DNA of 64,000 nt from a bacterium (GTDB lineage Bacteria > Patescibacteriota > Microgenomatia > UBA1406 > GWC2-37-13), in contig JAJYIQ010000001.1 in NCBI GenBank assembly GCA_021789995.1, positions 372,001-436,000 of the forward strand. The letters run 5' to 3'. The position numbers were made by a program, and so were the translations under genes. The notes beneath the pieces were generated by a model. It did no database searches. It was not told the DNA's origin and saw nothing but the letters and a program-made list of their open reading frames with translations. Of the stretch, positions 13,368-21,916 are shown in pieces. Numbering within the stretch: position 1 is the stretch's first letter; each line of letters starts with the position of its first letter.

Positions 13368-14438
13368 GTGGATAATCAGTCTGCTAACCAACAGAATCAA
13401 ATAAATAGCTTGTCAGAGGTGGAAAAGCTGCGAGCCAGTTTGCAGCAAGCCGACTTGCCTGCTAATCTGCATGACAAGGCGCTTGAACAGATCAACCGGA
13501 TTGAATTAACGCTTCGCTACGGCGGCAATTTTTCCCAGATGGATATTACCGCCAAGTATATCGACTGGATCACTCATTTGCCGTGGAATAAAAAAACTGA
13601 AGACAAGCTGGATATTAATTACGCCAAACAGGTATTGGACAAAAATCATTACGGTTTACAAAAAATAAAAGACCGCGTCCTGGAATATTTGTCTTTATTA
13701 ATTGTCCAGCGGCAGAAAGCACCGGCTGGCGCCTTTCATGCGCCGTCGCTTTTTTTTGTCGGCCTGGTCGGCACCGGCAAAACCACCTTTGCCAAATCGC
13801 TGGCCGAAGCTTTGGGCCGGACTTTTATCCGCATTCCTTTCGGCGGCCTGTCCTCGGCCCTTGATTTGCGCGGCCAGTCAAAAACTTCGCCGGAAGCCGA
13901 ACCGGGTATGATCATCCGCGGTTTGCGCCGGGCGGGCAGCCGCAATCCGGTCATCCTTCTTGATGAACTGGACCGGATTAGCCCCGAATCGAAAGCAGCC
14001 ATCATGGGCGTCCTTGTCGAACTTTTGGATCCGGAACAAAACGCCGCTTTTAACGATTATTTTATCGATTATCCGTTTGACCTATCGCAGGTTTTATTTG
14101 TCGCCACGGCCAATAACACCAATAGCATTGCGACGGCAGTCATGGATCGGCTTGAAGTGATCCAAATGCCTTCATATACTGATGAGGAAAAAATCGCTAT
14201 TGCTAAAAACTATGTCCTGCCACGTTACCTGAAGGAGTCGGGCCTGACGCCGGATAGCCTGAAAATCGACGATGCTTTATGGCTCAAAATCACGCGGCCA
14301 CTGGGATTTGATGCGGGAATACGGACACTGGAGCGGACGATCGAAGGTATTGTCCGTAAAGCAGCTTATAAAATGGTTTCCGGCCAGGGTCAGAACTTTA
14401 TCATTAATGAAAGTAATATCAAGGAATTTCTTGATTAA
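13368..14438 (+). CDS. Lon-type AAA+ ATPase lacking the protease domain
   Basis: A 356-residue protein colinear with the middle of Lon protease. It begins in the helical segment before the ATPase (SEVEKLRASLQQADLPANL; YIDWITHLPW; DKNHYGLQKIKDRVLEYL) and contains Walker A GLVGTGKT (132-139), Walker B VILLDE (195-200), sensor-1 ATANN, an arginine-finger region MDRLEV and sensor-2 GIRTLER. It ends at NESNIKEFLD, exactly where Lon passes into its protease domain. The Lon N-domain and the Ser-Lys protease are absent, so it can act only as an unfoldase or remodelling ATPase. It starts at GTG, divergent from groES. Confidence 0.9.
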   Translation: MDNQSANQQNQINSLSEVEKLRASLQQADLPANLHDKALEQINRIELTLRYGGNFSQMDITAKYIDWITHLPWNKKTEDKLDINYAKQVLDKNHYGLQKIKDRVLEYLSLLIVQRQKAPAGAFHAPSLFFVGLVGTGKTTFAKSLAEALGRTFIRIPFGGLSSALDLRGQSKTSPEAEPGMIIRGLRRAGSRNPVILLDELDRISPESKAAIMGVLVELLDPEQNAAFNDYFIDYPFDLSQVLFVATANNTNSIATAVMDRLEVIQMPSYTDEEKIAIAKNYVLPRYLKESGLTPDSLKIDDALWLKITRPLGFDAGIRTLERTIEGIVRKAAYKMVSGQGQNFIINESNIKEFLD

Positions 14439-18172: not shown

Positions 18173-19735
18173 ATGAAAAGGTGGTTGCTTCCTATAATAC
18201 TCACCCTGTCAGTAGTTGGCCTAATCGATGCCGGTTATTTGACTTGGGAACATTATCAAACCGCTAATATTATTCCCTGCTATTACAATCCCCGTTTGCC
18301 GGCATTTTTTTCCGACTGCGGCAAGGTGCTAAACAGTGCATATTCTGTTCTTTTCGGCGTTATTCCCCTGGCGCTAATCGGACTGATCCATTATGGAATT
18401 TTGACCGCTGTTATTTTGCTGGCGATCATCACCGGAAAAAAGTTTTTCCGTTACTGGACAATGCTGGAAACAACAATCGGCGCGCTCGCTTCCCTCTATT
18501 TTGTTTACCTTATGGTAATTGTGATTAAAAGTTTTTGCCAATTTTGCGGATTATCGGCATTAATCAGTTTTATTTTATTTATTATTGCTTATCATTATTT
18601 AGAATACGAACGGAAAGGCTGGATCATTTATATCGGCGGATTAATTTACAAAAATATCGTCAAGCCGTTTTTTTTCCTGATCGATCCGGAAACGATCCAT
18701 ATTTTTATGGCGCAAACCGGCGAATTTTTGGGCGCCTGCCCGCCTTGCCGATGGATAATCAAGGAACTGTTACCGATTGACAATCCCCGACTGAGACAAA
18801 CCGTTGCAGGAATTAAATTTGCCAATCCCATCGGTTTATCGGCCGGGTTCGATTACGAAGCCTGGCTGACGCAAATTCTGCCAATCATCGGCTTTGGTTT
18901 TGAGACAATTGGTACGGTAACAAATCATCCGTATGACGGCAATCCCCGCCCCCGACTCGGCCGCCTGCCGAAATCGAAATCACTTATGGTCAATAAAGGT
19001 TTTAAAAGCCCGGGGGCGGATAAAATAATCGAAAAATTGGATAATAAGCATTTTGAAATTCCGATCGGGATCAGTATCGGACGGACAAACGGAATTAAAA
19101 ACATGACACAAAAACAAAGCATCAACGACATTGTTGCCGCGTTTAAAAAGTTCGAACGTTCGAAAGTTCAAAATGCATACTACGAACTGAATATCAGCTG
19201 CCCTAACTTATACGGCAACATCAGTTTTTATCCACTAAACAATTTAAGGGATTTGCTGGCCGCGGTCGGAAAACTGCGGCTCAAAAAACCGGTCTTTATC
19301 AAAATGCCGATTGAAAAAAGCGATAAAGAAACTTTAGCTATGCTAAACGTCATTTCAAAATTTCGGTTTGTAACGGGAGTGATTTTCGGTAATTTACAGA
19401 AAAACCGCCAAGACCCGGCACTTGATAAACAGGAAGTGAAAAAGTTCAGAGTCGGCAATTTCAGCGGCAAACCGACGGAAAAGCGATCGAATCAACTGAT
19501 CAAACTGGCATACAAAAATTATGGAAAACGGTTTGTTATTATTGGCTGCGGTGGAATATTTGATGTCAAAGACGCTTATCAAAAAATCAAACTCGGCGCG
19601 TCATTGGTACAACTTATCACCGGCATGATCTATCAGGGTCCGGCCCTGATCGCCCAAATCAATCTCGAACTCATTGACTTACTGAAAAAAGACGGCTTAA
19701 AAAATATTGTCGACGCCGTAGGAATTGATGTATGA
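18173..19735 (+). CDS. VKOR - dihydroorotate dehydrogenase fusion
   Basis: One 520-residue frame joins two quinone-linked enzymes. Residues 1-145 are a VKOR domain: four or five membrane helices, loop Cys36 and Cys49 in SDCGKVLNSAYSVLFG with conserved Ser55, and the active-site Cys122-Gln-Phe-Cys125. Residues 160-520 are a class-2-like DHODH: LIDPETIHIFM, FANPIGLSAGFD, NPRPRLGRLP, NISCPN (340-345) and IIGCGGIFDVKDAYQKI with GASLVQLITGMIYQGP. The short linker helices carry CPPC at 189-192. The catalytic position is Cys343, as in class 1 enzymes, and the Lys of the usual GFDK is Tyr228. TATAAT at 18161-18166 ends 6 nt before the ATG. It is expected to sit in the membrane, linking thiol/disulfide chemistry, quinone and an FMN oxidoreductase. 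Confidence 0.9.
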   Translation: MKRWLLPIILTLSVVGLIDAGYLTWEHYQTANIIPCYYNPRLPAFFSDCGKVLNSAYSVLFGVIPLALIGLIHYGILTAVILLAIITGKKFFRYWTMLETTIGALASLYFVYLMVIVIKSFCQFCGLSALISFILFIIAYHYLEYERKGWIIYIGGLIYKNIVKPFFFLIDPETIHIFMAQTGEFLGACPPCRWIIKELLPIDNPRLRQTVAGIKFANPIGLSAGFDYEAWLTQILPIIGFGFETIGTVTNHPYDGNPRPRLGRLPKSKSLMVNKGFKSPGADKIIEKLDNKHFEIPIGISIGRTNGIKNMTQKQSINDIVAAFKKFERSKVQNAYYELNISCPNLYGNISFYPLNNLRDLLAAVGKLRLKKPVFIKMPIEKSDKETLAMLNVISKFRFVTGVIFGNLQKNRQDPALDKQEVKKFRVGNFSGKPTEKRSNQLIKLAYKNYGKRFVIIGCGGIFDVKDAYQKIKLGASLVQLITGMIYQGPALIAQINLELIDLLKKDGLKNIVDAVGIDV

Positions 19736-21841: not shown

Positions 21842-21916
21842 TGGTGCGTCTGCTTGGATTCGGACCAAGGACATCCACTTTATAAGAGTGGCGCTCTACC
21901 GCTGAGCTACAGACGC
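21842..21916 (-). tRNA. tRNA-Ile (UAU)
   Basis: Acceptor GCGTCTG pairs with CAGACGC. The anticodon arm is CCACT-CTTATAA-AGTGG, so positions 34-36 read UAU, decoding AUA directly. T-arm CTTGG/CCAAG; CCA is encoded. It is first of a three-tRNA unit with Phe and Gly; a TATAAT box lies about 20 nt upstream on the minus strand (near 21934). Confidence 0.92.

Follow-up and report, generated by a model that had tools for sequence, protein, structure and literature searches.

The window (the whole 64,000-nucleotide stretch analysed here) contains one open reading frame that joins a VKOR domain to a flavoprotein of the dihydroorotate dehydrogenase (DHODH) type, so that VKOR has a new partner here and the DHODH, which is of class 2 type, has a rebuilt pocket. 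We tentatively interpret the product, at somewhat less than an even chance, as a rigid, membrane-bound two-module quinone oxidoreductase, in which the VKOR would be combined with a repurposed FMN half that likely re-oxidises the VKOR quinol. The fusion, its conservation, the junction length, the pocket changes, the separate PyrD and the missing oxidases, on which this reading is built, were all taken from sequence. The features of the gene are as follows:

18173..19735, + strand: VKOR-DHODH-type fusion gene, ATG to stop, single open frame, 520 aa
18194..18589, + strand: VKOR domain, residues 8-139 (PF07884, E 9.2e-23)
18278..18280, + strand: Cys36, outer-loop cysteine, in 44/44 VKOR domains compared
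18317..18319, + strand: Cys49, outer-loop cysteine, in 44/44 VKOR domains compared
18335..18337, + strand: Ser55, conserved VKOR serine, in 44/44 VKOR domains compared
18536..18547, + strand: C122-Q-F-C125, VKOR quinone-side CXXC, both Cys in 44/44
18599..18637, + strand: junction from VKOR TM4 to the DHODH part, about residues 143-155 (spacing counts; modelled helix 144-167)
18602..18769, + strand: class-2 N-terminal quinone-tunnel helices, residues 144-199, with His176 (model alignment)
18737..18748, + strand: CPPC, residues 189-192, unconserved (2/42 fused, 0/2 adjacent-gene, 0/35 unfused homologues)
18791..19684, + strand: FMN-barrel DHODH-type core, residues 207-504 (PF01180, E 6.4e-53; fold match)
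18854..18856, + strand: Tyr228, replacing human Lys100; Tyr in all 42 fused proteins and in both adjacent-gene forms
18989..18997, + strand: Val273-Asn274-Lys275, replacing human Asn145-Arg146-Tyr147 (alignment)
19199..19201, + strand: Cys343 at the class-2 catalytic Ser215 position; Cys in all fused proteins and the whole Patescibacteria/DPANN-type clade
19391..19396, + strand: Asn407-Leu408, human Asn284 kept and Thr285 changed to Leu (alignment)

An earlier note on this DNA had described a single uninterrupted VKOR-DHODH frame, and the frame (18173-19735, 520 aa) was found with both domain matches above cut-off and with Cys36, Cys49, Ser55, C122-Q-F-C125 and the CPPC at 189-192 all where that note had placed them. 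The Pfam scores were 81.3 bits for PF07884 on the VKOR part (cut-off 27.5) and 180.3 bits for DHO_dh PF01180 (cut-off 27). The quinone-type DHODH model TIGR01036 matched residues 161-519 with 240.5 bits (cut-off 200), the quinone-dependent DHODH model NF003652 scored 285.8 (cut-off 267), and the domain-profile searches found no thioredoxin domain in the fusion. The structure model, made with 16 sequences as input (mean pLDDT 90, pTM 0.86), showed four long VKOR helices followed by helices at 144-167, 172-188 and 190-199 and then the barrel. When compared with the same-genus copy, the VKOR part gave a dN/dS of about 0.19 and the DHODH part one of about 0.07, and by these ratios purifying selection acts on both halves.

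Among the 37 close relatives surveyed, a set that includes the genome of the window, 13 genomes from twelve genera encode both domains in this order within a single frame. In an even sample of the class, profile matches occurred in 90 of 373 genomes and intact fusions in 41 (our own count of the survey rows), distributed over seven family-level groups (f1, f2, f9, f10, f19, f25 and f38). The profile-matching genomes that lacked an intact fusion had mostly the flavoprotein alone, with a few split or contig-broken cases. In two genomes (L166 and L160) the VKOR and a Tyr-type flavoprotein are separate genes that touch each other on the same strand, which is a further sign that both work together. 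The search for this domain order in other Patescibacteria, proposed in the earlier note, was thus positive in 41 of the 373 class-level genomes, and the two domains were not always separate genes. An assembly chimera or a chance joining of two genes, for which nothing was found in favour although some relatives encode the flavoprotein without VKOR, deserves practically no credence, because the same fusion is present in many different genomes, including the named Candidatus Woesebacteria RIFCSPHIGHO2_01_FULL_39_32 (L025) and genomes of merely 2-3 contigs (G246, G020), and both parts are under purifying selection; the survey of relatives and class-level genomes ruled out an assembly error. As the earlier note had supposed, no description of a VKOR-DHODH fusion was found in the literature searched, which covered few subscription papers, and domain databases may list the architecture. 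No papers on DHODH in the Candidate Phyla Radiation or Microgenomates were found in the same literature. Thioredoxin-like partners are those given in a paper on VKOR phylogeny, in which the words fusion, fused and dehydrogenase are absent.

The VKOR domain folded alone gave a mean pLDDT of 78.5, and its top 14 Foldseek rows were solved VKORs, 2 of them with E < 0.001. Its four long helices are predicted at residues 5-28, 66-87, 90-118 and 123-142. By sequence and fold match, bacterial VKORs and VKOR-thioredoxin fusions (Synechococcus VKOR; 3kp9, 4nv2) have the same four-helix core, two cysteine pairs and serine; the thioredoxin domain of those fusions lies outside, whereas the C-terminal partner here is an FMN barrel predicted to be cytosolic. 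The fusion was the sole VKOR above cut-off in 12 of the 13 fused relatives, and DsbA-like Thioredoxin_4 proteins were found in 16 of the 16 genomes tested; on this gene content, the fusion is therefore probably the cell's main disulfide generator. The relative G003 has, besides the fusion, a stand-alone VKOR whose gene overlaps a DsbA-like thioredoxin gene at the end of the latter (L106:1285-2419), which is the usual pairing.

The spacing at the junction was 11 residues in 33 of the 42 fused proteins, 18 in seven, 14 once and 7 once. As 18 minus 11 makes 7 residues, or two helical turns, the orientation between the parts would be kept, and these counts fit a junction helix that fixes the angle between the VKOR and DHODH parts. 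Beyond it, the model aligned with human DHODH 3u2o from residue 151 (human residue 30) with Z 48.5 and 1.6 A over 349 residues. The tunnel residues His176 and Arg264 (human His56 and Arg136) were kept in all fused proteins, and the former was present in every row compared. The class-2-like DHODH part with quinone-tunnel helices described in the earlier note was therefore borne out by the modelled helices and by the TIGR01036 match, with a correction at the catalytic residue, where the class-2 serine is Cys343. The distribution of positive charges speaks for a predicted topology with the N-terminus, the TM2-TM3 loop and the segment after TM4 in the cytosol.

The earlier note had placed the CPPC at the centre of an electron relay from FMN through this motif and the VKOR cysteines to quinone. 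The motif does stand at 189-192 and is common to the same-genus genome G001; however, the proteins of the window and of G001, both of one genus, were its only carriers, and it was missing from the other 40 of the 42 fused proteins. No other CXXC was found in this region across the compared set (42 fused, 2 adjacent-gene and 35 unfused proteins), so that the conservation which the earlier note had put up for checking shrank to two proteins of one genus. The VKOR cysteine pairs work at the outer face of the membrane. Because the charges favour a cytosolic post-TM4 segment, the CPPC should face the cytosol, and the charge pattern thus puts it and the VKOR cysteine pairs on opposite sides. We therefore consider the relay highly improbable and rejected the CPPC as its carrier; the motif is a coincidence.

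The class 2 DHODHs (human 3u2o, M. tuberculosis 8ofw, E. coli 1f76) share with the fusion the fold, the tunnel helices and the FMN-barrel core. Asn212, Asn217, Asn284, Lys255, Arg136 and His56 (human numbering) were kept in every fused protein, with Lys377 and Asn407 standing for Lys255 and Asn284. The fusion differs from them in that VKOR replaces the N-terminal anchor and in residue changes, namely Ser215 to Cys, Lys100 to Tyr, Asn145 to Val, Tyr147 to Lys, Thr285 to Leu and Tyr356 to Ile. The Lys100 position was Lys in 11 of 11 canonical class 2 DHODHs; among the 42 fused proteins, the Asn145 position was Val (Ala once), the Tyr147 position was always Lys and Thr285 was Leu throughout. The correspondence between T. 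cruzi and human residues used here is one that we assume from the alignment and from family knowledge. In T. cruzi DHODH, Lys43, Asn67 and Asn194 are the main orotate contacts, with Asn67 the strongest, and Lys43 and Asn67 bind the orotate carboxylate and ring (PMC4427443). Human Lys100, Asn145 and Asn284 are listed as active-site residues (PMC12197698), and Asn145 is described as essential for dihydroorotate binding (PMC12534982). As aligned, every fused protein has thus lost two of these three side chains. The alignment near residue 273 was gap-free and was backed by Lys-type homologues with Tyr147 in register; a one-residue slip, with Asn274 standing at Asn145, may nevertheless be possible. 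The exchanges of Lys for Tyr and of Tyr for Lys occur jointly, so that the pocket may still be within reach of a lysine.

The unfused class-2-type proteins of Patescibacteria and DPANN form one group with the fused ones (97*) and have the Ser215 to Cys, Asn145 to Val and Thr285 to Leu changes in common with them. Unlike the fused proteins, they have no VKOR, and 17 of 35 keep Lys100, mostly with Tyr147; the other 18 carry the Tyr signature, which means that the altered pocket also occurs independently of VKOR. In a tree of 90 sequences, made by a short search and with many weakly supported forks, the Patescibacteria/DPANN-type proteins parted from canonical class 2 (97*). The tree needed 2 changes for the Lys/Tyr state and 11 for fused versus unfused, which indicates that, within the Tyr-type group, the fusion arose or disappeared on several occasions. 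A Patescibacteria-type Tyr-form homologue also occurs in a MAG labelled Saprospirales (Bacteroidota) (L044:5959-7059), by transfer or binning error.

The genome of the window (G000) encodes a class 1 DHODH (L024 9797-10903) in an operon with pyrB, carA, carB, pyrC, pyrF and pyrE. It belongs to the same PF01180 superfamily and has Cys at the catalytic-base position; unlike the fusion, it has neither quinone-tunnel helices nor VKOR and lies among pyr genes. When the 13 fused genomes of the close-relative set were searched for another DHODH-type protein above the Pfam cut-off, one was found in nine (G000, G001, G002, G003, G012, G014, G018, G023 and G027); several of these additional DHODHs lie beside pyr genes, some are divergent and the frame in G001 contains a stop. 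PF02729 carbamoyltransferase, OMP decarboxylase and another DHODH were not found in G007, G009 and G015 (98%, 91% and 84% complete), where the fusion is present. G012, in which PF02729 and OMP decarboxylase were not found, has a class 1 and a canonical class 2 DHODH as divergent neighbours (L203:1887-4010) besides the fusion. In G002, a frame of 639 aa (L198:11195-13111), on the same contig as pyrF, encodes a divergent DHODH-like domain followed by what looks by eye like a phosphoribosyltransferase-like stretch. G020 has pyrB, carA, carB, pyrC-like, pyrE-like and pyrF genes, and no PF01180 protein besides the fusion was found in it. In its pyr operon, pyrC is surrounded by genes like FrdA, FrdB and aspartate ammonia-lyase (L124:8032-13019), where other genomes have DHODH, possibly as a fumarate-linked replacement; orotate could be made there either by the fusion or by the Frd-like pair. 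Near the fused and unfused homologues, the only pyr-type genes found were one pyrF-like frame, which lies at the L188 edge, and genes of carbamoyltransferase type in L026 and L164, which match pyrB at about 30%. The fusion is thus probably not the enzyme of pyrimidine synthesis. Most of the link to that pathway drawn in the earlier note finds no support, given the separate pyr-operon DHODH, the three relatives without the tested pyr genes and the two replaced contacts; what stands of it is G020, which leaves a DHODH role possible.

No COX1 (haem-copper oxidase) or cytochrome bd was found in any of 16 genomes, while the control genomes matched. UbiA matched in all 16 genomes and in all 14 controls, and the UbiA-type protein L206, from the same genus, had decaprenyl-phosphate phosphoribosyltransferase as its best match, below the cut-off of that model. 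UbiA was accordingly unusable as a sign of quinone synthesis, and as L206 is closest to another type, quinone would have to be scavenged or made another way. The text of a paper on quinone distribution does not mention Patescibacteria or CPR.

In the reading that we prefer, Cys36 and Cys49 of VKOR would oxidise extracytoplasmic DsbA-like proteins, and the electrons would pass from this pair to Cys122 and Cys125 and on to quinone. The descendant of a class 2 DHODH would sit on the cytosolic face, held by a helix that continues VKOR helix 4 and replaces the usual DHODH membrane anchor, so that the quinone tunnel would open beside VKOR. The VKOR and the FMN tunnel would share quinone at the membrane, and the FMN module would most likely re-oxidise the VKOR quinol and reduce a cytosolic compound. 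As the pocket is rebuilt (the Lys100/Tyr147 swap and the Asn145, Ser215 and Thr285 changes), it would react with another cytosolic compound and most likely no longer serve pyrimidine synthesis. The fold and topology in this scheme are predicted, and FMN binding, quinone exchange, direction and substrate are what we infer. With no terminal oxidase found, we consider it more likely that quinol passes electrons to the FMN half than that it receives them; this direction is the weakest step and has the missing oxidases as its only ground. The scheme is further weakened because no quinone pathway was identified among the UbiA-type matches (L206 being closest to another type), 18 of the 35 unfused homologues share the Tyr signature, Asn212, Asn217, Asn284 and Lys255 are kept while the Lys/Tyr exchange may keep a pocket lysine, and G020 has pyr genes although no PF01180 protein other than the fusion was found in it. 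A stronger form, a self-contained disulfide-forming enzyme of cells without respiration, in which extracytoplasmic thiol electrons run from VKOR via a local quinone to the FMN half and a cytosolic metabolite, replacing the respiratory chain, is conceivable, and we hold it with low confidence.

Two other readings have to be weighed against this scheme. The FMN module could be a quinone-reducing dehydrogenase for a different metabolite, with VKOR mainly its anchor and the two reactions independent. The predicted VKOR helix 4 does lie at the usual place of the class-2 DHODH membrane anchor, 18 unfused Tyr-type proteins have no in-frame VKOR, and SDR genes near the fusion in six f19 genomes could mean a metabolic substrate; against it, the VKOR active residues, needless for a mere anchor, are invariant in 44 of 44, the junction length is near-fixed and VKOR and the flavoprotein also occur as adjacent genes, and we regard this reading as unlikely. 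We find it slightly more improbable that the flavodomain has remained a dihydroorotate dehydrogenase whose pocket is rearranged; both domains would then reduce a common quinone pool, the fusion would do no more than share quinone between pyrimidine synthesis and disulfide formation, and the CPPC would be uninvolved. The scores above the TIGR01036 and NF003652 cut-offs, the retained Asn212, Asn217, Asn284 and Lys255, a Cys base position as in class 1 enzymes, and G020, which has a pyr operon but in which no other PF01180 protein was found, would agree with it. It is opposed by the replacement, in all 42 fused proteins, of Lys100 and Asn145, whose equivalents bind orotate in T. cruzi (PMC4427443), by the finding that most fused relatives with pyr genes have a DHODH-type gene apart from the fusion, and by the three fused genomes without the tested pyr genes.

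For the disposal of electrons from oxidative protein folding in cells without a terminal oxidase, the fusion is a single-gene candidate that can be expressed in E. coli. If the stronger form of the scheme is true, the VKOR-FMN pair stands in for the respiratory chain that normally re-oxidises quinol. Patescibacteria are numerous and mostly uncultured, and the carriers of the fusion are tiny bacteria, probably fermentative. Proteins of this phylum named 'quinone-dependent dihydroorotate dehydrogenase' can carry a pocket in which two of the main orotate contacts are lost, and pathways predicted from that name may therefore be wrong.

In the window, the fusion has a PD-(D/E)XK gene upstream and a NUDIX gene downstream, the latter common to 6 fused loci. 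No neighbour was conserved across all families at the fused loci, and gene neighbourhood was therefore set aside as a functional clue. In the six f19 genomes (L163, L164, L165, L179, L182 and L183), an SDR gene touches the fused gene in most and is close in the rest; it shares the strand of the fusion and lies either upstream or downstream of it, depending on the genome. These SDRs are diverse and fell below the cut-off of every NCBIfam model among the matches listed; they could be a lead on the metabolic substrate of the fusion. Elsewhere in the window, a gene on the + strand (13368-14438) beside groES and groEL encodes a Lon-like AAA+ ATPase with a lid domain, for which no N-terminal or protease domain match was found. 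A tRNA-Ile with anticodon UAU was predicted by ARAGORN on the - strand (21842-21916); UAU is unusual for bacteria, in which AUA is normally decoded through a modified CAU anticodon.
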